From contig VHCI01000008.1 in NCBI GenBank assembly GCA_016871775.1, positions 1 to 53,852 on the forward strand: DNA of 53,852 bases, read 5' to 3'. The position numbers and the translations under genes were made by a program. The stretch's first letter is position 1. The number at the start of each line of letters is the position of its first letter. Under the pieces are notes generated by a model. The model worked only from the letters and a program-made list of their open reading frames with translations, was not told the DNA's origin and did no database searches. Origin of the DNA: Verrucomicrobiota bacterium (GTDB lineage Bacteria; Verrucomicrobiota; Verrucomicrobiia; Opitutales; Opitutaceae). Below are positions 40,689 through 53,852 of this stretch, piece after piece.

Positions 40689-41774
40689 TCAACCGCCAAG
40701 CGTGGCAGTCGGCGGCGCGGCGGGAACGATCGCTCGGGCATCGGCGAGCAGGGCATCGACCGTCTCCTCCCGAGTGGCCCAAGAGCACATCAGGCGGTAG
40801 CCGTGCTCCCCGATAAAGCGGTAAAAGCGCCACCCGCGGGCCTCGAGGCCTTGGGCCAGCGCGGGGCTGAGTTCCACGAACACCCCGTTGGCCTCCACCG
40901 GGGCGATCAGTTGGGCTCCGAGGGCCTCCAGCCCGGCAGCGAGGCGGCGGGCCAGGCGGTTGGCATGCGCGGCGTGCCGGAGCCAGGCACCGTCACGCAG
41001 GACGGCCACCCACTGGGCGGAGGCGAACCGCTGCTTGGAGGCGAGCTGGCCTGACTGCTTGACCCGGTAGGCGAACTCGCGGGCAAGATCCCGATTGAAG
41101 AAGACCACTGCCTCGGTCGAAAGCAGGCCGTTCTTGGTGCCGCCGAGGCAGAGGACGTCCACCCCGGCGCGCCAGGAGAGGTCGGCGGGCGACCAGCCCC
41201 GCTCCCGGCCGGTCGCGGCGGCGTTGGCGAAGCGGGCGCCGTCCAGGTGCACCGCCAGTCCGTGTGCGCGCGCGAACTCCCCCAGCGCCCCCAGCTCCGC
41301 GGGCGTGTAGAGCGTGCCCAGTTCGGTGGCCTGGGTCAGCGAAAGGGCTCGCAGCTTCGGGAAGTGGATCCCGTGGCCGCGGCTGGGCAGCGGGGCCAGC
41401 GCGGCGGGCGTCACCTTGGCGTGCTCCCCGGGCACGGTCAGGAGCTTGGCTCCACCGGTGAAGAACTCGGGCGCCCCGCACTCGTCCGTCTCAACGTGCG
41501 CCAACGCGTGGCAGGCGACCGCATGGTGGCGCTGGCAGAAGACGGCGAGCACCAGAGCGTTGGCCGCGGTGCCATTGAAGACGAAGGCCACCTCGCATTC
41601 CCGCTCGAAGGTTTCCGCCAGCAGCCGCCGAGCCTCGGCCGTCGCCACATCGTCGCCGTAACTGGGCGCGCACCCGGTGTTGGCCGCGGCGAGGGCGGCC
41701 CAAGCCTCCGGGCAGACGCCCGCGGTGTTGTCGCTCGCCAAGGAGTAATCGGGGACCGGGTGGGATGAGGACAT
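40689..41774 (-). CDS. ltaE: Low-specificity L-threonine aldolase (PLP)
   Basis: The 361-residue protein is a fold type I beta-eliminating lyase. 'SLASDNTAGVCPEAWAALAAAN' and 'PSYGDDVATAEARRLLAE' are the family N-terminus. 'HLDGARFANAA' holds the pyridine-binding Asp, and 'LCLGGTKNGLLS' contains the Schiff-base lysine K214. It cleaves threonine/allo-threonine to glycine and acetaldehyde in the cytoplasm. It is divergent from aroK; the ATG here ends at 41774. Confidence 0.9.
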   Translation of the reverse strand: MSSSHPVPDYSLASDNTAGVCPEAWAALAAANTGCAPSYGDDVATAEARRLLAETFERECEVAFVFNGTAANALVLAVFCQRHHAVACHALAHVETDECGAPEFFTGGAKLLTVPGEHAKVTPAALAPLPSRGHGIHFPKLRALSLTQATELGTLYTPAELGALGEFARAHGLAVHLDGARFANAAATGRERGWSPADLSWRAGVDVLCLGGTKNGLLSTEAVVFFNRDLAREFAYRVKQSGQLASKQRFASAQWVAVLRDGAWLRHAAHANRLARRLAAGLEALGAQLIAPVEANGVFVELSPALAQGLEARGWRFYRFIGEHGYRLMCSWATREETVDALLADARAIVPAAPPTATLGG

Positions 41775-41824
41775 GGTTTCGCGGCTGGCAAACTAGCCGG
41801 ACCCCGGCTCTCCTCAAGCGCCTG

Positions 41825-42370
41825 ATGTCACCTGCAGACGTGAACCTTTATTTGGTCGGTTTTATGGGCACCGGCAAGACGACCGTCGGCCGCGTGGTTG
41901 CCCAGCGACTGGGCTTCGCCCTGCTTGACAGCGACCACGAGATCGAGCGAGTGCAACAGTTGACGATTCGGGAATTGTTCGCGCAGCGGGGAGAAGCCGC
42001 GTTCCGGGCCCTAGAGCGGGCCTTCATCGAGCAGGGGCACCCGCCCAGCCGCACGGTCGTCGCCTGCGGGGGTGGCCTGGTGGTGCCGCCCGGGATGTTG
42101 CCGCTGCTGCAAGCGCGTGGGGTCGTGGTGTGCCTCCACGCCTCCCTCGAGACGATCCTCGCCCGCACGTCCCGGGCGCGGAACCGCCCGCTCCTTGAGG
42201 TGGAAAACCCGGAGGAGCGGATCCGCATTCTCTACGCCGCCCGCGAGGCCGCGTACCGCGCCGCGGGCACGATGGTCCTCACAGACTCCCGCCCGCTCGC
42301 GGACATCGCCGCCCATGTCGCGCGCGTCTGGCAGCGAGACGCCCGGGATTTCGCCCGGCGGGCGTCGTGA
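41825..42370 (+). CDS. aroK: Shikimate kinase
   Basis: The 181-residue protein is read from the ATG at 41825; a longer in-frame start at 41765 overlaps the divergent gene. The P-loop 'GFMGTGKTT' (12-20), D36 in 'LLDSDHEIE' binding shikimate/Mg, 'FRALE' with the substrate arginine (about 61) and 'CGGGLV' (81-86) identify it. The LID region is 'RTSRARNRPLL'. It phosphorylates shikimate in aromatic amino acid synthesis. Its stop overlaps the queG start (GTGA). Confidence 0.93.
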   Translation: MSPADVNLYLVGFMGTGKTTVGRVVAQRLGFALLDSDHEIERVQQLTIRELFAQRGEAAFRALERAFIEQGHPPSRTVVACGGGLVVPPGMLPLLQARGVVVCLHASLETILARTSRARNRPLLEVENPEERIRILYAAREAAYRAAGTMVLTDSRPLADIAAHVARVWQRDARDFARRAS

Positions 42371-43497
42371 GCCCCGCCGATCCCCGGCCCGGGGAACTTC
42401 ACCGCCGGCTCCTCGCCCTTGGCTTCGACGAGGCCCGCTTCGCGAGCATCCCGGGGCCGCTTCCCGATCCCCTGCCCGCCTGGCTCGCGGCCGGGCACCA
42501 CGCGGAGATGCAATGGATGGAGCGCACCGCGGCCAAGCGCCTCGATCCCGGGCTCATCCTGACTGGCGCCCGGTCGGTCGTGATGCTAGGGGTGAACTAC
42601 TGGGCAGACGCCCTTCGGGACCCGCCCGCCGGGGCCCCGCGCTGGGCCCGATACGCGCTGCACGAGGATTACCACGACACCATCCGGCCCGCCCTCGAGG
42701 CCGCAGCGCGGCTCCTGGAGGAACTGTTCGGGGCGGCCCCGGGCGACACCCGGTACTATATAGACACCGGGCCGGTGCTCGAACGCAGCTGGGCGGTCCG
42801 CGCCGGCCTCGGTTTCACCGGGAAGAACGCGATGCTCATCTCGCGCCGCCACGGCAACTGGCTGTTCCTCGCCGCCCTGCTCACCCGCGTACCGCTGCCC
42901 GCCGATCCTCCTGCGGCCCCACCCGGCGACCGGCCCGCCATCGGCACCTGGTGCGGCAAGTGCACCCGCTGCCTCGACCAATGCCCCACGGCCGCCTTCA
43001 CCGCGCCCGGGGTCCTCGACGCCCGCCGCTGCGTGTCGTACCACACGATTGAGAACAAGGGCATCATCCCCCGCGACCTGCGCCCAGGCATCGGCAACCG
43101 CGTCTACGGCTGCGACACCTGCCTGGAAGTCTGCCCTTGGAACCGCTTCGCCCGGGCTGGCCGCGCCGTGCTGCTCTCGGCCCGGCACGACCTCGCCGGC
43201 CTCAGCCTAGCCGACCTGCTCGACCTCACCCCTGAGACCTTTGCGGCCACGTTCCGCCGCACCGCGGTCAAACGCCTCAAGCTGACCGGCCTGCTCCGCA
43301 ACGCCTGCGTCGTCGCGGGCAACTCCGCCGACCGCTCCCTCCTGCCGCGGCTGCTCCGGCTCGCCCGCACCCACGTCTCGCCGCTGGTCCGCGCCCACGC
43401 CGTCTGGGCCGTCCGCCAGCTCGAAGCCACGGCCCTCCCCCCCCTTCCACCCGCGGAGGAAAGGGACCCCGCGGTCCAAGCGGAATATACCGCCTAG
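42367..43497 (+). CDS. queG: Epoxyqueuosine reductase QueG
   Basis: The 376-residue protein starts at a GTG inside the aroK stop. The N-terminal cobalamin-binding part has 'MQWMERTAAKRLDPGLILTGARSVVMLGVNYW' and 'RYALHEDYHD', the 'DTGPVLERSWAVRAGLGFTGKNAMLI' signature follows, and two 4Fe-4S motifs are present ('CGKCTRCLDQCP' and 'GCDTCLEVCPWN'). A HEAT-like C-terminus ends the chain. It performs the last step of queuosine formation in tRNA. The stop codon shares its bases with the convergent thioesterase stop. Confidence 0.94.
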   Translation: MSPADPRPGELHRRLLALGFDEARFASIPGPLPDPLPAWLAAGHHAEMQWMERTAAKRLDPGLILTGARSVVMLGVNYWADALRDPPAGAPRWARYALHEDYHDTIRPALEAAARLLEELFGAAPGDTRYYIDTGPVLERSWAVRAGLGFTGKNAMLISRRHGNWLFLAALLTRVPLPADPPAAPPGDRPAIGTWCGKCTRCLDQCPTAAFTAPGVLDARRCVSYHTIENKGIIPRDLRPGIGNRVYGCDTCLEVCPWNRFARAGRAVLLSARHDLAGLSLADLLDLTPETFAATFRRTAVKRLKLTGLLRNACVVAGNSADRSLLPRLLRLARTHVSPLVRAHAVWAVRQLEATALPPLPPAEERDPAVQAEYTA

Positions 43498-43895
43498 CGG
43501 AAGGCGGCGGCAAAGAGCGCCGCCACCGCGGCCGGCGGACGCACCGGGCGGCCCTGCAGGTCGATGAACGCGTGCACGCTGTGCCCGGTCGCCAGCAGTT
43601 CCTCGCCACGGCGCACCTCGTACTCTAAGCGGATCCGCAGCAAAGGCCGCTCGGTCAGCCGCGTCACCACAGTCACGAGGTCATCATACCGCGCCGGACG
43701 GAGGTACTTCAGGCTGACCTCCAACACCGGGAGCCGGAAACCCGACTCCTCCAATTGCCGGTACGGCAGCCCCAACTCCTTCAAAAGCTGCGTGCGCCCC
43801 ACCTCAAGCCACGGGACATAACTTCCGTGGTACACCACCCCCATCATATCGGTCTCCGCGTAGCGGACGGTGAGCTCCGTGGTCGACGTGATCAT
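43494..43895 (-). CDS. Hot-dog fold acyl-CoA/acyl-ACP thioesterase (4HBT, YbgC-like)
   Basis: The 133-residue protein is counted from the ATG ending at 43895, which overlaps the glycosyltransferase stop (ATGA). 'VRYAETDMMGVVYHGSYVPWLEVGRTQLL' is the YbgC/4HBT active-site region, with the catalytic Asp in 'ETD' and the conserved H-x-x-Y-x-x-W/F. Length and fold match. It hydrolyses a thioester, and the company of an acyl-carrier-protein dehydratase and ketosynthase suggests release or editing of a special acyl chain. Confidence 0.88.
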   Translation of the reverse strand: MITSTTELTVRYAETDMMGVVYHGSYVPWLEVGRTQLLKELGLPYRQLEESGFRLPVLEVSLKYLRPARYDDLVTVVTRLTERPLLRIRLEYEVRRGEELLATGHSVHAFIDLQGRPVRPPAAVAALFAAAFR

Positions 43896-45040
43896 AAAGC
43901 CTGAATCGGCCCGGGGCCGAACAGGGCCGCCGCCGAGGCTGCCCACGACGTGCGCCCCGCCCAGCGCCGGCCCTCCTCGCCCAAGCGCCGCCGCAACGCC
44001 CCATCCGCCAGCACCCGCGCAAAGGCGGCCGTCAGATCCTCCGGCCGGTCCGGCGGCACCAGCAGGCCGGTTTGGCCATCCGCCACCGCCTCAGACACCC
44101 CACCTACGGCGTGCGCCACGACGGGCAGTCCCTGCGCCGAGGCCTCTAGGTACACAAGGCCGAAGCCCTCGACGCTGTGCCCGTGCTGAATGCTGGTGAG
44201 GGCGAAAACGTCCGCCCCCGCATAGATGGCCGGCAACTCCGCGTCGGGCACGTCTCCCCAAAAGGTCACCCGGAAATCGGAGCGCGCCGCCTCCGCCCGG
44301 AGGGTTTGGGCGTAGCCCGGATCCGACTCCGTTCCCACCACGCGGTACTCCAATCCTGCCCGCAGTGCCTCCGGCAGCCGTTGCAGCGCCTGCAGCGTCC
44401 GCAATTGCCCCTTCCGCGGGTGCAGGCGACCGACCGTCAGGACCACGCTTCCGGCTCCCTTCCGGGTCGCTGCCCGCGGCGCCACCCCAAAGTCTGACCG
44501 TAACGCCCCGGGGGTCAGGACCAATTTGCCCTCCGACTCCGGGAAATGCCGGCGCACGAGGTCCGCGGTGAACGCCGTGAGGGTGCTGATTCGGTCCGCG
44601 CGCGCAAACAGGCACGCCGCCAACCGCCGTCGCCAAGGGTGGTGGGCGAACCGTAGCACCTCGGAGCCGTGAACCGTCAGCACCAGCCGCCGCGGCCGCA
44701 GGGCGCCAGCAAATTGCAGTAGCATCCAAACCAGCATCGGTCCCGGCTCCGCGAGGTAGATCGACGACTGCCGCAGCCGGCGCCGGTCGCGCAGGAGCTC
44801 GCGCGCGAGGCGCATTTGGCATCCCCAGTTGTGAGTCCCGGCGAGGGGCAGGTGGCGGATGGGGAAGGGCCAGTCGGCTTTGGTCACCCTGGTTTGCGGA
44901 GCCCAGACCTCCACCGCGTGGCCCGCGCGGGCGGCCGCCCGGGCCATTTCCTCAGCGAATGTCGCGATCCCCCCGCGTTGCGGGAAGAATTCATGGGTGA
45001 TCACGCAGAGAGGCGGGGAGCCGATGGGCGGGGCGCGCAT
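43892..45040 (-). CDS. GT4-family glycosyltransferase
   Basis: The 382-residue protein is counted from the ATG ending at 45040, just before 'LCVITHEFFPQRGGIATFAEEMARAA'; an in-frame start at 45121 would add a basic leader. The donor domain carries 'VGRLHPRKGQLRTLQAL' and 'EGFGLVYLEASAQGLPVVAHAVGGVSEAV', the GT-B/GT4 E-x-(7)-E signature that binds the nucleotide sugar. It transfers a sugar to a lipid or glycan acceptor in the cytoplasm or at the inner membrane. It lies upstream of the thioesterase and divergent from the ACP-dehydratase gene. Confidence 0.9.
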   Translation of the reverse strand: MRAPPIGSPPLCVITHEFFPQRGGIATFAEEMARAAARAGHAVEVWAPQTRVTKADWPFPIRHLPLAGTHNWGCQMRLARELLRDRRRLRQSSIYLAEPGPMLVWMLLQFAGALRPRRLVLTVHGSEVLRFAHHPWRRRLAACLFARADRISTLTAFTADLVRRHFPESEGKLVLTPGALRSDFGVAPRAATRKGAGSVVLTVGRLHPRKGQLRTLQALQRLPEALRAGLEYRVVGTESDPGYAQTLRAEAARSDFRVTFWGDVPDAELPAIYAGADVFALTSIQHGHSVEGFGLVYLEASAQGLPVVAHAVGGVSEAVADGQTGLLVPPDRPEDLTAAFARVLADGALRRRLGEEGRRWAGRTSWAASAAALFGPGPIQAL

Positions 45041-45180
45041 GCGCGGAGTAAAATCGGGGCCGCCGCGGCCCCGGGACGCAGGGCTACGGGACGCCCCCGC
45101 CCGGCGCAAGCGTCCTTCCACGGTCTGGCGAACTGCGCCAATTCGACACCCAACGTGGCGAATCCACGAGAATAATGGGG

Positions 45181-45208
45181 TTTACTTTCGTGCCCTCCGC
45201 GACATAAC
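45181..45208 (+). promoter_or_regulatory. Possible sigma-70 promoter of the ACP-dehydratase operon
   Basis: In the 179-base divergent gap, TTTACT (45181-45186) and CATAAC (45203-45208) are 16 bases apart and match the -35 and -10 consensus at four of six positions each. They lie in the most AT-rich part of the gap. The predicted start of transcription would be only a few bases before the ATG at 45220, so an almost leaderless message or a different upstream promoter is possible. Confidence 0.25.
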
Positions 45209-45219
45209 CCCGATGGACG

Positions 45220-46191
45220 ATGTCAGAAGCCACCGTTAAGCCAACGCTGCCGAACCAACCGGTCGCACCCGCGCCCAAGCCGTTCGCGCCGGAGGACGAG
45301 GTGATGCTCCGGGAATCGCTGAAACGCTGCTCCCCCTCCACCTTCGAGGCCGCCATCCAGTTCCGCAAGACGGGCAATCCGGACCACGTCCCAGCGGTAG
45401 TCATCGGAGTCATCGAACGCTTTGTCGAGCCGGACCTTCGGGTGAAGCTGAAGGACGCCGACGACGACCTCCGTCTCGTCGAGGACCTCGGGATCGATTC
45501 GCTGACGATGATGGAGATCGTGATCCTCGTGGAGGACGTGCTCCAGATGTCGATCAACAACGAGGAATTGCGCAATCTCCGAACGGTTGGTGACGTTAAG
45601 ACATTCATCGACTGCAAGGCCCGTGGGCTGCCCCTGCCGAAGCCGACCAAGTTCCTGCCCATCGAGCACATCGGCACCGTGATGCCGATCCAACCCCCCT
45701 TTCTCTTCCTCAACGAGGCCTCCGTCAGCTCCACCTCGGCGAGCGGCAAATATAAGATCACCGGGCAGGAGTTCTTCCTTCAGGGTCACTTCAAGGACAA
45801 CCCGGTGATGCCCGCCTCGATCATGCTCGAGGCCTTGGGCCAACTCGCGGTGCTGTACCTGCTCGAGGGTGCCCCGGCGGATCCCGGCAAGCGGGTCAGC
45901 CCCCTGACCATCTTTTTCACCGGCTGCGAGGGCGTGCGCGCCCATCGCGTCTGCAGGCCGGGTGACATCCTGTCCCTCTCGGTGAAACCGAAACGGATGA
46001 AGATGCCCCTCGCCACCTTCGAGGGCTCCATCCGCGTGGGCGCCGACAAGGCCGTCATCGCAGAGGAAATCACCCTGACCTTCGGCTTCGTGGAAATCGC
46101 CGAGGCCCCGGCCCCCGCCGCCGCGGCGCCCACCATTACCGCCCCCGCGCCCGCGGAGGCCGCCCCGCTGCGAGCGGCCGTCAACGCCTGA
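45220..46191 (+). CDS. Acyl carrier protein fused to a FabZ-type dehydratase
   Basis: The 323-residue protein joins an ACP domain (about 55-135, phosphopantetheine serine S94 in 'DLGIDSLTMMEI') to a hot-dog dehydratase domain (about 145-290). H190 in 'LQGHF' and E204 in 'IMLEALGQ' are spaced 14 apart, as the catalytic H54/E68 of E. coli FabZ. The usual 'LPHRYPFLLVD' strand is replaced by 'MPIQPPFLFLN', with the HR pair lost. An Ala/Pro-rich tail ends the chain. It would carry and dehydrate beta-hydroxyacyl groups, with the substrate held on its own ACP. It heads a run of six forward genes. Confidence 0.88.
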   Translation: MSEATVKPTLPNQPVAPAPKPFAPEDEVMLRESLKRCSPSTFEAAIQFRKTGNPDHVPAVVIGVIERFVEPDLRVKLKDADDDLRLVEDLGIDSLTMMEIVILVEDVLQMSINNEELRNLRTVGDVKTFIDCKARGLPLPKPTKFLPIEHIGTVMPIQPPFLFLNEASVSSTSASGKYKITGQEFFLQGHFKDNPVMPASIMLEALGQLAVLYLLEGAPADPGKRVSPLTIFFTGCEGVRAHRVCRPGDILSLSVKPKRMKMPLATFEGSIRVGADKAVIAEEITLTFGFVEIAEAPAPAAAAPTITAPAPAEAAPLRAAVNA

Positions 46192-46226
46192 GTCCGGGCC
46201 ATCCGGCCGGCACCCGCCTAGGCCCT

Positions 46227-47489
46227 ATGCCCAGAGTCTTCATCACCGGGCTCGGGTTCGTCACCAGCATCGGTAACGACGCCGCTACGGTCGTCGACCA
46301 TCTCTACGCGCTCCGGCACGGATTCGAACTTTACCCGCCCTTCCAGACCTCGGATATTCCCTGCAAGGTCGTTGGCACGATCAAGGGGTTCACCACCGAC
46401 TCGACGGACCCCGAGGACTGGACGTTCCCCGCCGCCTACGCAATCAAGCGGGAACTCCTGCGCTCGATGGCGCCCAACGGACTCTACGCCCACTGCGCGC
46501 TCCTTCAGGCAATCGCGGACGCGCGTCTGACGCCCCCGGACATTTCGAATGCGGACACCGGCCTCTACGCTGCCTCCGGCGGTTCGCCCTACCTCACCCA
46601 CCACCATCACGGGCGCTTGCAGAAGGTCGGCGTGATGCGCTGCTCACCCCTCGGCATCGTCGCGTCGATTGTGGGGACACTGAATTTCAATCTGGTGGCC
46701 GCTTTCCGCATCCACGGTGCATCCTGCGGGTTCTCTTCCGCCTGCGCCTCCTCCGCCCACGCCCTCGGCTTCGCCTTCGACGATCTGGTGCTCGGCCGAC
46801 AAAAGCGGATGTTCATCGTCGGGGCCGAGGACGGCAACCGCGACGCAATTCTGCCCTTCGCCGGGATGCGCACGCTCTCCCTGCAGACGGACCCCGGGAT
46901 AGCCTCGCGACCCTTCGATGCGGCACGCGACGGCTTCGTCGGCACTGGCGGGGCCACGGTGATGGTGCTCGAGACGGAGGACGAGGTTGCTCGCCGCGGC
47001 GTCACGCCCTACGCGGAAGTGCTCGGCTGGGGCCAGGCCTCGGACGGGCACAACGTGGCCATCTCGCACCCCGAGGGCCTCGGCTCCGCCGCCGCGATGC
47101 GGCTCGCGCTCGAGGCTTCCCGGGTCGAGCCCGCGGACGTGGAGTACGTCAACGCCCACGCCACCTCGACGCTTATCGGCGACATTTCCGAGGCGCGCGC
47201 GCTGCGGACCGTGTTCGGCCCGGCCCTGCCCCAGGTGGCCGTTAGCAGCACCAAGGCCCTCACCGGCCACGGGCTCTCCCTCGCCGGGGTAATGGAAAGT
47301 GCCTTCTGCGCCCTCGCCCTGCGCCACGGGTTCATCCCCGGCTGCGCCCACCTCCGCACGGTGGACCCGGAATGCGCCGGTCTCAACCTCCCGCGGGCGA
47401 CGGAGGCGCGGCCGGTCCGCACCGTGCTGAAGAACAGCAGCGGTTTCGGCGGGGCCAACGTTGCCGTCCTCTTCCGGCGGGCCACCTGA
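46227..47489 (+). CDS. Beta-ketoacyl-ACP synthase (KAS II-like)
   Basis: The 420-residue protein is a condensing enzyme of the thiolase fold. The Cys-His-His triad is placed at C173 ('SSACASSAHAL'), H311 ('NAHATSTLIGD') and H348 ('KALTGHGLSLAG'). 'MPRVFITGLGFVTSIG' and 'GGATVMVLE' are normal for the family. It elongates an acyl chain with malonyl-ACP, probably on the ACP domain encoded just upstream (35-base gap). The sequence deviates from housekeeping FabF in several places ('THHHHGRLQKVG'), so a dedicated role is likely. Confidence 0.92.
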   Translation: MPRVFITGLGFVTSIGNDAATVVDHLYALRHGFELYPPFQTSDIPCKVVGTIKGFTTDSTDPEDWTFPAAYAIKRELLRSMAPNGLYAHCALLQAIADARLTPPDISNADTGLYAASGGSPYLTHHHHGRLQKVGVMRCSPLGIVASIVGTLNFNLVAAFRIHGASCGFSSACASSAHALGFAFDDLVLGRQKRMFIVGAEDGNRDAILPFAGMRTLSLQTDPGIASRPFDAARDGFVGTGGATVMVLETEDEVARRGVTPYAEVLGWGQASDGHNVAISHPEGLGSAAAMRLALEASRVEPADVEYVNAHATSTLIGDISEARALRTVFGPALPQVAVSSTKALTGHGLSLAGVMESAFCALALRHGFIPGCAHLRTVDPECAGLNLPRATEARPVRTVLKNSSGFGGANVAVLFRRAT

Positions 47490-47497
47490 GCCGACCC

Positions 47498-48328
47498 GTG
47501 GGCCGCGTCGCCGATCTTTACCGCACGGCCTTCGTCACCGGGGCCTCCACCGGCCTCGGCCGGGAATTTGCCCGGATGCTGCTCGCCGAGGGTGTCACCG
47601 TCTGGGGCACCTCCCGAGATCCCACCCGCCTCGCCGACCTTGCCCGCGAACTCCCCGGCCGGTTCCACCCGGTGGCCCTCGACCTGCGGGACGCCGCCGC
47701 GGCCCTCGCGACCTTCCGCCAGATGGACGCCGCGGCGGGCGGCTGCGACCTCCTCCTGAACAACGCCGGCTTCGGGGTCTTCGGTGAGTTCAGCGCCGCG
47801 GACTTCACGGTCTGGCGCGAGCAGTTGGAGGTGATGCTGGTGCTGCCCGCGGCCCTCGCCCACGCCGCGCTCCCGGGAATGCGCGCCCGCGGCCGCGGCG
47901 CCCTCGTCAACATCTCCTCGCTCGCGGCCGAATTCCCCCTGCCCTACCAAGCCACCTACAACGTCACCAAGGCCGGCCTCACCGCCCTCAGCGAAAGCCT
48001 GATGCTCGAGACCGCCGGCAGCGGGGTGATCGTGCTGGACATGCGCCCGGGCGATTACCGCACTGACTTCGAGACGTCCCTGCGGCGCCTGCCCGGGTCC
48101 GATTCGCCACGCCTAGACCGGGTCTGGCGAGCCTTCGCGGCGATGATGCGCTCGGGCCCCGTCCCCGCCGCCGCCGCCGCCGACCTGCGGCGCGCCCTCC
48201 GCCGCGGCCGCAGCGGCACGCTCCGCACCGGACGGTTCTTCCAGGCTGTCGCCGGGCCCCTGCTCGCCCGCCTCGGCTCGCTGCCACTCCGGCGCCGCCT
48301 GCAGGCCGCCTACTTCAACCTCCGCTGA
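47498..48328 (+). CDS. Short-chain dehydrogenase/reductase
   Basis: The 276-residue protein is counted from a GTG at 47498, eight bases after the ketosynthase stop; an earlier in-frame start lies inside that gene. The nucleotide motif 'FVTGASTGLGREFA', 'LLNNAGFG', the serine of 'NISSLAA' and the Y-x-x-x-K of 'YQATYNVTKAG' define a classical SDR. In this setting it could be the ketoreductase that makes the beta-hydroxyacyl intermediate, but a different alcohol/ketone step is possible. The C-terminal 'RRRLQAAYFNLR' tail is basic and might associate with the membrane. Confidence 0.9.
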   Translation: MGRVADLYRTAFVTGASTGLGREFARMLLAEGVTVWGTSRDPTRLADLARELPGRFHPVALDLRDAAAALATFRQMDAAAGGCDLLLNNAGFGVFGEFSAADFTVWREQLEVMLVLPAALAHAALPGMRARGRGALVNISSLAAEFPLPYQATYNVTKAGLTALSESLMLETAGSGVIVLDMRPGDYRTDFETSLRRLPGSDSPRLDRVWRAFAAMMRSGPVPAAAAADLRRALRRGRSGTLRTGRFFQAVAGPLLARLGSLPLRRRLQAAYFNLR

Positions 48329-48331
48329 CCG

Positions 48332-49543
48332 ATGGCGCAACTGCGGATCCTCGTGCTCACCTCCAGCACCGGCGGCGGCCACGACGCCCGCGCCGAGGCC
48401 TTCGCGGAATGGTGCTTCCAGCTCTACCGGCACGACGTCGACGTCCGCATCGAGCATATGCTCGAGCGCTCTTCGGTCGTGCACCGCTCGGGGGTCTGGT
48501 TCTACAACAACATCCAGCGCACCGCGCCCTGGGTGCATACCCTTTTCTATGCGGCCGTCGAGCTGCTTAGCCTGCTCAACCGCCGCTCGGTCAGGCTCGG
48601 CGCCGCCTATTATCGGCGGGTGCTGGAGGAATACCGGCCGCATCTGATCCTCAGCGTCCACGACTGCCTCAACCTGGGGTACTTCCCCCTCGCCCGCCGC
48701 GTGCTCGGCGCGGAGCGCGTCCGCTGCGCCACCTATTGCGGGGAGTTCTCCGGCGGCTGGGGCTACTCGCGCAACTGGATCGAACCGAGCGTGGACCTGT
48801 ATCTCTCGCGCACCCCGACCGCGCGCGACTACGCGGTCAAGCGCGGCATCCCGCCGGAGCGGGCGCGGGTCCGCGGTTCCCTGATGCGGCCGCAGGCGCA
48901 CCTGGAGGTGCTGGACGCCGCCGGCCGCACGGCGCTACGCCGCCGGCTGGGCCTCGACCCGGACCGCTTCACCGTCTTCCTCGCCACCGGGGCCAACGGC
49001 GCGAGCAACCACCTCGCGCTCCTCCCAGTCCTCCTCGCCCACGCGGAGCGCGTCCAGGCGATCCTCATTTGCGGCCGCAACCGCGAGCTGCACCACGAGC
49101 TCCTCCATTGGCGCACCGAGCACCCGGAGTTCCCCTGCTACGTGGAGGGTTACTCGGACTCCGTGCACCTGCTACTGCAGGCGAGCGACGTAATCGTGAC
49201 TCGCGGCGGCACCACCACCTGCGCCAAGGCGCTGCACTTCGGCTGCCCGATCGTCTTCAACGCCTTCGGCGGGATTATGCCCCAGGAGAGCCTGACCTGG
49301 AAATTCTTCCGCAACGGGGCCGCTTCGGAGAAGATCGGGGACGCCGAGGACTTCGCGCGGGTGCTGGGCCGCTGGCTTGAGGAGCCGACGACCTATGCGG
49401 CCGTGCGCGAGAACTTCCTGCGCCTCCGCTACGAGGAGGATCCGACCGCGGTGATCGACGAGCTGGTGGCCCTAGGCAACGAGGTCGCGCACGCCGAGCT
49501 GCGCCGCCAGCCGTTCCCGCCCCCTGAGTCCGGGACCGCCTGA
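48332..49543 (+). CDS. MGDG-synthase/MurG-like (GT28) glycosyltransferase
   Basis: The 403-residue protein starts with 'LRILVLTSSTGGGHDARAEAFAEW', the 'S-x-T-G-G-G-H' opening of the diacylglycerol glycosyltransferase (MGDG synthase) family. The C-terminal donor site has 'LLLQASDVIVTRGGTTTCAKALHFGCPIVFNAFGGIMPQE'. These GT-B enzymes add a sugar to diacylglycerol or a related lipid. It follows the SDR by three bases. The natural acceptor may be the acyl product of the preceding genes. Confidence 0.85.
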   Translation: MAQLRILVLTSSTGGGHDARAEAFAEWCFQLYRHDVDVRIEHMLERSSVVHRSGVWFYNNIQRTAPWVHTLFYAAVELLSLLNRRSVRLGAAYYRRVLEEYRPHLILSVHDCLNLGYFPLARRVLGAERVRCATYCGEFSGGWGYSRNWIEPSVDLYLSRTPTARDYAVKRGIPPERARVRGSLMRPQAHLEVLDAAGRTALRRRLGLDPDRFTVFLATGANGASNHLALLPVLLAHAERVQAILICGRNRELHHELLHWRTEHPEFPCYVEGYSDSVHLLLQASDVIVTRGGTTTCAKALHFGCPIVFNAFGGIMPQESLTWKFFRNGAASEKIGDAEDFARVLGRWLEEPTTYAAVRENFLRLRYEEDPTAVIDELVALGNEVAHAELRRQPFPPPESGTA

Positions 49544-49610
49544 GCCGCCGCGCGCCGTGGCCGCAATGCGCTTGGCCGCGCGCCGCGCGCCGTTCTAGCC
49601 TCGCCCGAAC

Positions 49611-50828
49611 TTGCCCGCGCCGACGCCCCTCATCGCCTACCTCTTCACGACCTTTCCGCTCGGCACGGAGACGTTCCTCCAGCGCGAGATCGTCGCGCTG
49701 CACCGGCGCGGCGTCCCGCTCCGCCTCTATTCGCTTTGGGGCGGCGGGGGCACCTTCCGCGGCCTGCCGGTATACCGGTTCCCCAAGTGGCGCCTGCTGC
49801 TGCTCCCTTGGGTGCTCCCGCGTGAGGCCTGGCGCCGGCCCGCGGCGCTGGCCGAGCTGCTGCGCGGTCTCGCCTCCCGCAGGGCCCCCTCGTGGCTGAA
49901 TTTTTGGGAGAATATGCTTGGCGCCGGCTTCGCCTGCCTCTTCGCCAGGGCCTTCCGCCGCGACCCGCCCGCCTTGGTCCACGCCGCGTGGGGCGGCGCC
50001 CCGGCCACCGCCGCTTGGATCCTCTGGCGCATCAACGGCCACCGCTACAGCGCCGCCGCCCACGCCTACGACCTCTACGAGCATGGGGGCGACTGGTGGC
50101 TGCGGGAAAAGCTCGCGCCCGCCGCGTTCGTTCACACCTCCACCGAGATGGGCCGCCGCGCCCTCTTGGCCCGCGGGCTCAACCCCGCCCGCATCGCCTG
50201 CATCCGCCGCGGGCTCGATCAGTTGCCCCCGCGCAAGGCCCTCCGCGCCCTGCGCACGCCCCTCCGCTTGATCTGCGTGGCCCGCCTCGTCGGCAAGAAG
50301 GGCCTCGACCATCAGCTCCGCATTTACGCCGCGCTCAAGGCGGCCGGGGTACCCTTTTCCGCCCACATCATCGGCGAGGGGCCGCTGCGCGCGGAACTCG
50401 AGCGGCTCGCGGGCCAGCTGGGGGTGGCCCCGGAGGTCACATTCACCGGCCACCTGCCCCAGCACGAGGTCTGGAACCAGCTGGCCTGGGCCGACGTACT
50501 CCTCCACACAGGCGTGATCGCCGGAAGCGGCGACCGCGACGGCCTGCCTAACGTGATCCCTGAGGCGATGGCCGCCGGGGTCCTCGTCCTGACCTCCCCC
50601 GCGGCCGCCACCACCGAGGCCGTCACCCACGGCGTCTCCGGCCTCGTCGCCGAGGTCACCGCCCCAGCCGACTGGGTTGGCTGGCTGGACCGCCTCTCCC
50701 GCGACGACGCCTTCGCCGAACGCCTCCGCACGGCCGCGCGCGCCTGGGTGGAGGAACACTTCGACGCCCACCGCAACGCTGCGGCACTGTGGGAGCGGTT
50801 CCAGGCCGCGCTGGCCCCGGACCGATGA
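49611..50828 (+). CDS. GT4-family glycosyltransferase, WcaL/AmsK-like
   Basis: The 405-residue protein begins at a TTG ('MPAPTPLIAYLFTTFPLGTETFLQREI...'), the start type seen in exopolysaccharide glycosyltransferases of the WcaL/AmsK group. The donor domain has 'CVARLVGKKGLDHQLRIYAAL', 'IIGEGPLRAELERLAGQLG' and 'GDRDGLPNVIPEAMAAGV', where the glutamates bind the nucleotide sugar. It follows the GT28 gene after 67 bases of GC-rich spacer and overlaps the next gene (ATGA). It probably extends a glycan. Confidence 0.88.
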   Translation: MPAPTPLIAYLFTTFPLGTETFLQREIVALHRRGVPLRLYSLWGGGGTFRGLPVYRFPKWRLLLLPWVLPREAWRRPAALAELLRGLASRRAPSWLNFWENMLGAGFACLFARAFRRDPPALVHAAWGGAPATAAWILWRINGHRYSAAAHAYDLYEHGGDWWLREKLAPAAFVHTSTEMGRRALLARGLNPARIACIRRGLDQLPPRKALRALRTPLRLICVARLVGKKGLDHQLRIYAALKAAGVPFSAHIIGEGPLRAELERLAGQLGVAPEVTFTGHLPQHEVWNQLAWADVLLHTGVIAGSGDRDGLPNVIPEAMAAGVLVLTSPAAATTEAVTHGVSGLVAEVTAPADWVGWLDRLSRDDAFAERLRTAARAWVEEHFDAHRNAAALWERFQAALAPDR

Positions 50829-51949
50829 TCCTCTTCGACGTCACCAAGGCGGCCGAGGACCGGCACGCCTCCGGCCTGCAACGAGTCAGCCGGCGGCTCC
50901 GGGCCGCGCTCGGGCCGGCCGCGACACCGGTCCGCTGGCACCCCGGGAGCGGCAGTTTCCGTTCCGCGGCCGGGGCCGAGCCTAGGGCGGGCGACTGGCT
51001 GCTGACCCCGGAAGTATTCGCACCCGGGGAACGCCCGGGGTTCGCCGCGTGGCTGGCGAGGCGTCCCTGCCGGTGCGCGGCCGTCTACCACGACGCGATC
51101 CCGCTGCGGCTGCCGCACGTCACCTGGCCACGGAGCGTGGCGCGGCACCCGGCTTACCTGCGCTGCCTCGCGGAGCTGGATGCGGTCTGGGCGGTGTCGG
51201 CGGCCAGCCGGGTGGAATTAGAGGGGTATTGGCGCTGGGCAGGGGTCGAGCGGCCACCACCGGTGGCGGTGTTACCCCTAGGGGCGGACTTCGACGGCTC
51301 GCCGCGCGCGCCAGCGGGAGTGCCGGAGGACCCGCCGCGGCTCCTCTGCGTGGGAATACTGGAGCCGCGCAAGCAGCAGACCCTGCTCGTCGAGGCCGCG
51401 GAACGGCTCTGGGCGGAAGGCCGGCGCTTCGAGCTGCACCTGGCGGGGCGGGTCAACCCGCACTTCGGGGCGCCCGCGCGCGCGCGGATCGCGGCGGCGG
51501 CCCGGCAGCACCGGGGGGCGCTGCAGTTCCACGAGGCCCCCAGCGACGCGACCCTGCGCCCGCTGCTGGACGGGGCGGCGGCGACGCTGTTCCCGAGCCT
51601 GGCGGAGGGCTGTGGCCTGCCGGTGCTGGAGTCCCTGTGGCGGGGCGTGCCGTGTCTGGCGAGCGACCTGCCAGCCCACCGGGAGCACGCGGCGGGGGGC
51701 GGCTGCCGCCTGTTCCCGCCCGGAGACATCGACGCCTGGACGGCGGGCCTGCGAGGTTTTTTGGACGATCCGACCGGCGCCGCGGACCTGCGCCGCGGGG
51801 CGGCAAGCCGGAGTCTGCCGACCTGGGCGGAGGCGGCGGCCGGCTTGCAGGCGGAGCTGGCGACCTGCCAGGGACGGGGAGAGGGGGAAGGCGGAGCCGG
51901 GGACGCCAAATCCAACCCAATCTTTCCGCCGCAGGCGGGCCCAGCCTGA
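50825..51949 (+). CDS. GT4-family glycosyltransferase
   Basis: The 374-residue protein is read from the ATG overlapping the preceding stop. 'FDVTKAAEDRHASGLQRVSRRLRAAL' and 'YHDAIPLRLP' recall mannosyl-type GT4 enzymes that act on polysaccharide intermediates. 'CVGILEPRKQQTLLVEAAERL' and 'PSLAEGCGLPVLESLWRGVPCLASDLPAHRE' form the GT-B donor site. It is the last of the forward glycosyltransferase genes. The final 20 residues are low complexity. Confidence 0.88.
   Translation: MILFDVTKAAEDRHASGLQRVSRRLRAALGPAATPVRWHPGSGSFRSAAGAEPRAGDWLLTPEVFAPGERPGFAAWLARRPCRCAAVYHDAIPLRLPHVTWPRSVARHPAYLRCLAELDAVWAVSAASRVELEGYWRWAGVERPPPVAVLPLGADFDGSPRAPAGVPEDPPRLLCVGILEPRKQQTLLVEAAERLWAEGRRFELHLAGRVNPHFGAPARARIAAAARQHRGALQFHEAPSDATLRPLLDGAAATLFPSLAEGCGLPVLESLWRGVPCLASDLPAHREHAAGGGCRLFPPGDIDAWTAGLRGFLDDPTGAADLRRGAASRSLPTWAEAAAGLQAELATCQGRGEGEGGAGDAKSNPIFPPQAGPA

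Positions 51950-52069: not shown

Positions 52070-53852
<1,783 letters not shown>

Follow-up and report, generated by a model that had tools for sequence, protein, structure and literature searches.

Sphingolipids were long thought to be rare in bacteria. Proteobacterial serine palmitoyltransferases (SPTs) prefer a specialised acyl carrier protein (ACP) that is encoded beside spt and loaded by an acyl-ACP synthetase, i.e. the AcpR-AasR-SPT start of the pathway (Caulobacter CC_1162 to CC_1165, E. coli BL21; PMC9386255). Caulobacter also makes glyco-sphingolipids (PMC11324152), and Spt-like proteins are reported for 22 Verrucomicrobiota metagenome-assembled genomes (MAGs) (PMC11334938). Here we analysed a DNA stretch of 53,852 nucleotides, hereafter the window, from a Verrucomicrobiota bacterium of the family Opitutaceae, order Opitutales (assembly GCA_016871775.1, contig VHCI01000008.1, positions 1 to 53,852, forward strand), and focused on a compact block of eight genes at 43494-51949 and on c4, an alpha-oxoamine synthase encoded outside the window. 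The block encodes an ACP fused to a FabZ-type dehydratase (the fusion), a ketosynthase (KAS), a short-chain dehydrogenase/reductase (SDR), a thioesterase and four glycosyltransferases (GT4a, GT28, GT4b and GT4c). We tentatively propose that it acts as a dedicated acyl-ACP supply and decoration for c4, together making a glycosylated sphingoid-like envelope lipid, a reading whose probability we place just short of even.

The block resembles AcpR-AasR-SPT in that its special ACP is, in part of the genomes, encoded near a putatively SPT-type enzyme. It differs in the fusion of this ACP with a dehydratase and its association with a KAS; moreover, no AMP ligase is present in the block, the ceramide synthase bCerS is unmatched in this genome and four glycosyltransferases are built in. 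A dehydratase and a FabB-like KAS recall the FabA/FabB pathway, from which the block departs by its FabZ-type active site, its fused ACP and its glycosyltransferase surroundings. Aryl polyene clusters contain the same types of KAS, ACP, dehydratase, reductase and thioesterase; unlike them, the block has a single KAS, four glycosyltransferases and, according to Pfam, no AMP ligase or AMP-binding domain, acyltransferase or MMPL exporter among its eight proteins. The very-long-chain acid cluster of rhizobia (AcpXL/FabZXL/FabFXL) likewise dedicates an ACP, a dehydratase and a KAS to an envelope lipid; by their general description, those are separate proteins found with a lipopolysaccharide (LPS) acyltransferase rather than with c4 and glycosyltransferases. 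Finally, GT28 resembles by family the diglucosyl-diacylglycerol and monogalactosyldiacylglycerol (MGDG) synthases, but its 92.5 bits against NCBIfam PRK13609 are far under the cut-off of 500, and its MGDG_synth match is just under the cut-off (24.6 of 25 bits).

Spt-like proteins in Verrucomicrobiota and special ACPs for SPT are thus already on record; what appears to be new is an SPT-like system that would draw on an ACP-dehydratase fusion with a KAS, includes several glycosyltransferases and lacks bCerS. Among the literature matches listed, titles and openings of abstracts showed no paper on the block or on Opitutales sphingolipids, which is not proof of absence. In the parts available, PMC5673642 treats glycosphingolipid metabolism by hydrolases only, and PMC12193912 gives an antiSMASH 'arylpolyene' match in one Opitutales strain. 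The block, kept by bacteria of soil and freshwater, provides a concrete partner set for one SPT-like clade that spans many families of a chemically poorly known order. If our proposal is true, the acyl chains for an SPT-type enzyme would come from a dedicated carrier for elongation and dehydration instead of from ligase-loaded fatty acids, and the product would be an undescribed glycolipid.

Conservation of the block and its linkage with c4

Genome contigs were scanned with a profile of the fusion alignment, which gave 309 confirmed relatives; counts for the block are based on the best 80. By title, these 80 loci (of which L159 and L160 look identical) belong to Opitutaceae, Opitutae/Opitutia, Opitutus, Cephaloticoccus or unplaced Verrucomicrobia MAGs. 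Each gene was searched with tblastn at 1e-15 and counted only among loci with enough contig, and genes scored as not detected may include diverged ones. GT4a and the thioesterase were found near the fusion in all loci with room (78/78 and 75/75), the KAS directly downstream of it in 73/75, and GT28 was kept in 60/62. The SDR was found in 42/62 loci, GT4b and GT4c each in 42/55. When the genes of 42 stretches were clustered (38 loci from the family or order and, from this genome, the window plus three more contigs), the most frequent were the fusion (38 stretches), the KAS (34) and GT4b (29).

The arrangement extends further. Both genomes read from another family of the order (f8; G007 and G032) carry all eight genes, arranged alike and with identities of 39-59%, and in three genomes of the same class but of other orders GT4a diverges from fusion-KAS-SDR, with identities of 39-44% for the fusion, 36-38% for GT4a and 38-45% for the SDR. 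Because it recurs in 80 loci, in another family of the order and partly in other orders, the gene order recurs beyond chance. The original prediction had taken the block for a dedicated unit, and related genomes indeed do not scatter its genes. It had suggested comparing gene order across Opitutales, and in this comparison the order is kept; the prediction missed c4, which lies on another contig and changes the likely product.

In a sample of 177 genomes of the order, 94 match the fusion: 70 at full length, 21 with separate ACP and dehydratase matches and three with a weak ACP match only, these classes being our own grouping. Matches of roughly 1e-96 and better were taken as c4, which gives 72 genomes; at 1e-60 the count rises to 76, including four genomes with a paralogue only (G019, G102, G110 and G142). 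c4 is present in 63 of the 70 genomes with a full-length fusion vs 9 of the 107 others (Fisher 8e-30, uncorrected for kinship), and eight of these nine have a split or weak ACP/dehydratase match.

In the clustering, c4 occurs in 15 of the 42 stretches, where it is usually convergent and downstream. Among the loci with room, 31 of 42 have c4 directly downstream of GT4c, with gaps of -2 to 351 bp. In the genome studied here, c4 is encoded on contig C3 (L077 8720-9940, minus strand), followed by a GT4 gene and then by a gene for a PMT_2-like membrane protein; a homologue of this GT4 comes after c4 in most of the 31 loci. It is the single alpha-oxoamine synthase of the genome at E 0.001, all statements on this genome resting on an assembly of 274 contigs that is 95.95% complete. 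The block-c4 locus seems to be split in this lineage, because another gene follows GT4c in the window and in two related loci (L102 and L103).

Across the sample, the fusion and c4 are at most 12 kb apart in 28 of the 63 genomes that have both, the closest being 1.3 kb apart. Two genomes of families f21 and f24 (G055 and G057) have ACP-KAS-SDR-GT4b-c4 in a row with GT28 diverging, the ACP being a weak match. Away from the fusion, c4 is adjoined by a GT4b-like gene in three genomes (G144, 67% identity; G084, 38%; G146, 47%), and in other genomes read (e.g. G007, G032, G164 and G069) the parted c4 stands without any block genes.

Affinities of c4 and the proposed pathway

A search of the PDB with c4 of this genome returned the SPTs 8guh and 3a2b as best matches (1.7e-96), followed by the BioF/KBL-type enzyme 8s1y (1.9e-78). 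The best NCBIfam model for a c4 homologue was SerpalmtaseCFB, a Bacteroidota-type SPT (367 bits, cut-off 640). In a maximum-likelihood tree of 34 sequences, 14 c4 proteins form one clade (100/100) on a long stem, inside a 95/95 group that also takes in proteins of Rubrobacter, gammaproteobacteria and Bacteroidota whose contexts are SPT-like; KBL and BioF of E. coli fall outside this group, BioF as a long branch. The tree is midpoint-rooted for drawing only and does not fix the sister group of c4, and the SPT labels of plasmid proteins in it are our own, assigned in part from gene neighbours. In this tree, SPTs are closer to c4 than KBL and BioF of E. coli are.

This position also bears on biotin synthesis, in which c4 would be BioF and the ACP module would make a pimeloyl-type precursor. 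BioF uses acyl-ACP, and no alpha-oxoamine synthase besides c4 was found in this genome. Besides its separation from E. coli BioF in the tree, BioB had no match in this genome and exceeded the cut-off in 0 of 15 sampled genomes of the family and in 9 of the 72 genomes with c4. Because BioB is rare among c4 genomes, the identification of c4 as BioF is hardly credible and effectively refuted by the BioB search, unless biotin is made without BioB.

From the genes, their motifs, their order and their linkage and co-occurrence with c4, we infer the following substrates, steps and product. The FabB-like KAS would elongate acyl chains on the dedicated ACP, and the ACP-fused FabZ-type dehydratase would act on the 3-hydroxyacyl chain. 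The fused carrier is probably where the chain is assembled or modified, since the ACP is fused to the dehydratase, a KAS is encoded alongside and the block has no AMP ligase. c4 would then take the acyl-ACP and an amino acid, probably serine, to give a long-chain 2-amino-3-ketone, which the block SDR, where present, would reduce. GT28 and the GT4 enzymes would add sugars to the base or to an N-acylated form of it, the product going to the envelope, and the thioesterase may clear stalled chains. A more specific version, which we find quite improbable, is that the fusion hands trans-2-enoyl- or 3-hydroxyacyl-ACP to c4, giving a sphingosine-type base without a desaturase, which is then glycosylated. 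The double bond or hydroxyl would become the 4,5 position of the base, since acyl carbons 2 and 3 become base carbons 4 and 5 in the SPT reaction, and such a hand-over would explain why, among the enzymes of fatty-acid synthesis, it is the dehydratase that is joined to the carrier.

Several observations weigh against a lipid made jointly by the block and c4. As to linkage, 11 of the 42 loci with room have no c4 after GT4c, including two that are very close to the window (L103 and L115), and c4 lies outside the window in this genome. The fusion and c4 are more than 12 kb apart in 35 of the 63 genomes, on different contigs in 30 and on the same contig in five (32 kb-1.07 Mb). Of the 94 genomes that match the ACP/dehydratase, 23 have no c4; family f16 accounts for 12 of these, and its module may produce unsaturated acids in the manner of FabA/FabB. 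The three genomes of other orders keep GT4a, the fusion, the KAS and the SDR, and the 19.5 kb that were read contain no c4; the SDR was undetected in 20/62 loci (tblastn 1e-15). As to c4 itself, its homologue scored under the cut-off of every SPT model, and the SPT structures which, by our presumed assignment of organisms, are proteobacterial (1.5e-72) came behind the BioF/KBL-type enzyme. The 95/95 group also holds uncharacterised enzymes of Priestia, Nonomuraea and Aureispira. Finally, a search for bCerS (Rahnella query, E 1e-8, down to 28% identity) matched 6/177 genomes, this one not among them; in two of the six (G080 and G102), bCerS adjoins a different alpha-oxoamine synthase, which falls outside the 95/95 group.

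These last results also weigh against a canonical glycosylated ceramide pathway (SPT, bCerS and the ceramide reductase CerR) with scattered genes. The proximity of c4 to SPTs and the dedicated ACP near c4, which recalls proteobacteria, speak for such a pathway. bCerS, however, is unmatched in 171 of the 177 genomes, and neither CerR nor CerS was matched at 1e-10 in the 20 loci read; the block SDR (Pfam adh_short) is of another type than CerR. The search for AasR covered the eight block proteins, in which no AMP-binding domain was found. Since bCerS of G080 and G102 pairs with another alpha-oxoamine synthase, c4 stands apart from the conventional pair. On the result of the bCerS search, the canonical pathway was dropped as the first choice and has a low probability in our view. 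Either c4 is something else, or another N-acyltransferase is used, or the base is left un-acylated.

The pairs of G080 (L181/L207) and G102 (L187/L205) look like conventional ceramide pairs, present in two Opitutaceae apart from c4. On a plasmid of Rubrobacter radiotolerans (L203 8845-12212, plus strand), an SPT-like gene (46.6% identity to c4) precedes genes that resemble bCerS (33% to the Rahnella protein) and CerR (29%); this is an actinobacterial plasmid cluster of ceramide type. Gene community c15 was considered as a ceramide reductase and rejected: its members are mixed epimerases, and the one in L053 is OleD-like. This OleD-like reductase (375 and 386 bits, cut-offs 580) lies just upstream of the fusion gene in G014 (L053 10293-12964, minus strand) and adjoins a 554-aa protein that by eye resembles an OleC-type ligase.

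Acyl-chain enzymes of the block and their other possible roles

The AlphaFold2 model of the fusion, built on a ten-sequence alignment, is of middling quality (mean pLDDT 79.7, pTM 0.57). Its N-terminal part is helical, and its best fold matches are FabZ structures (3az8: 148 columns, TM 0.90 on target). His190 and Glu204 of the dehydratase are invariant across 10 homologues; where a FabA-type active-site Asp was looked for, Glu204 was found instead. By the residue roles that we assume, Glu is of FabZ type and Asp of FabA type. In agreement, the dehydratase scores 65.4 bits with the FabZ model of NCBIfam vs 25.3 bits with the FabA model. Some FabZ-type enzymes have isomerase activity. The KAS groups with E. 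coli FabB and not with FabF, on a long stem and with a support of 89/88 that is under the 95 mark; its identity is 36% to FabB and 34% to FabF, and the contig C42 row of that tree is a 219-residue piece. A search of plasmids with the KAS gave only matches below 60% identity (best rows 37-38%). The SDR is not FabG-like in the NCBIfam ranking and is a candidate 3-keto reductase.

The grouping of the KAS with FabB favours the main rival of our proposal, i.e. a FabA/FabB-like module making monounsaturated chains for bulk lipids, with the glycosyltransferases and c4 as envelope genes that came to adjoin it. Family f16 points the same way: ACP and dehydratase matches are present in 12 of its 13 genomes, c4 or an FA_desaturase match in none of the 13, and the single f16 locus that was read (L072 of G036) has a KAS of the block type after the dehydratase. 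Opitutae moreover produce C16:1 and C18:1 acids, according to PMC12193912 and PMC10288369. Such a module is opposed by the FabZ-type Glu and model score of the dehydratase and by the FA_desaturase match found in this genome, and it leaves the company of GT4a, GT28, GT4b and c4 and the fusion of the ACP unexplained. We consider this rival unlikely. Making unsaturated acids could be an older role that c4 and the glycosyltransferases tapped, or the sole role. In f16 (e.g. L072, G036), ACP and dehydratase are separate genes in different places.

LPS or lipid A tailoring would use the block as a dedicated acyl-ACP source for an unusual LPS chain, with the glycosyltransferases building core sugars; AcpXL systems are the comparison case. 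LpxC occurs in 164/177 genomes, this one included, and heptosyltransferase-like genes were seen in 7 of the 42 stretches, several of them beside c4 or GT4b. Yet LpxC is also present in 73 of the 83 genomes without a fusion match, and LPS thus does not depend on the block; no acyltransferase is found among its eight proteins, and c4 is left unexplained. We rate this role as distinctly improbable. A block lipid that replaces LPS is likewise unlikely, since 91 of the 94 genomes with a fusion match have LpxC.

Under our preferred reading, in which the block supplies c4, the 'unusual glycolipid' of the original prediction is still the best broad label. That prediction had also described a set running from carrier to release: the families are all present, but the set is not closed, the SDR being other than FabG-like and undetected in part of the loci. 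It had asked whether the KAS and the dehydratase might be the only fatty-acid enzymes of the genome, which is not so, as PF00109 occurs at four places and PF07977 at three, with three KAS genes besides that of the block. The polyene-like chain it had offered was dropped, the aryl-polyene partners being absent from the block and a cluster on contig C42 being a better candidate.

This cluster (L075 8985-16685, plus strand) encodes a FabF-like KAS, an ACP, two CrtI/carotenoid-isomerase-like oxidoreductases, a FabZ-like protein and an enoyl-reductase-like SDR. Also encoded are a KAS III that passes the cut-off of PRK09258 (427.8 bits, cut-off 285) and an alpha/beta hydrolase close to haloalkane dehalogenases, which we take to be OleA-like and OleB-like, respectively. 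The cluster could make a polyene hydrocarbon or a ladderane-like chain.

Gene coordinates and neighbouring genes

All eight open reading frames (ORFs) at 43494-51949 are intact and lie in two divergent units, and Pfam agrees with the families that had been read from the sequence (Table 1).

Table 1. Features of the eight-gene block, in window coordinates
Feature	Position	Strand	Support
YbgC/FadM-type 4HBT thioesterase	43494..43946	-	Pfam 4HBT_2 1.5e-18; TIGR00051 77.7 bits, cut-off 68.7
GT4a, GT4 glycosyltransferase, divergent from fusion gene	43892..45121	-	Pfam Glycos_transf_1 3.1e-35
Divergent intergenic gap, 98 bp	45122..45219	.	coordinates
ACP + FabZ-type 3-hydroxyacyl-ACP dehydratase fusion	45220..46191	+	Pfam PP-binding 3.2e-6, FabA 2.6e-15
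FabB/FabF-type ketosynthase (KAS)	46227..47489	+	Pfam 4.3e-32
Classical SDR	47507..48328	+	Pfam adh_short 1.1e-36
GT28, diglucosyl-diacylglycerol synthase / MGDG synthase-like	48332..49543	+	Pfam Glyco_tran_28_C 1.1e-6
GT4b, GT4 glycosyltransferase	49611..50828	+	Pfam 1.8e-25
GT4c, GT4 glycosyltransferase	50789..51949	+	Pfam 7.6e-18

On the minus strand, the thioesterase ORF overlaps GT4a, and its start is likely the internal ATG of MITSTTE. The genes of the plus strand are spaced by 35, 17, 3 and 67 bp, with an overlap of 40 bp between GT4b and GT4c; the SDR ORF extends over 47372-48328, its real start being probably 47507. The KAS contains SACASS, NAHATS and LTGHG, the ACP GIDSL, the dehydratase QGHFK and MLEAL, and the SDR TGASTGLG and YNVTK, which we take to be the motifs expected for activity.

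After GT4c, the window encodes a long membrane protein (52070-53827, minus strand), presumably pyrophosphatase-like, which likewise replaces c4 in L102 and L103. Upstream of the thioesterase, two genes (41765-43497, plus strand), which we take to be shikimate-kinase-like (aroK) and QueG-like (queG), are also present in many of the 80 loci, so that the shared order extends past the eight-gene block. Another ORF upstream of the block is presumably aldolase-like.

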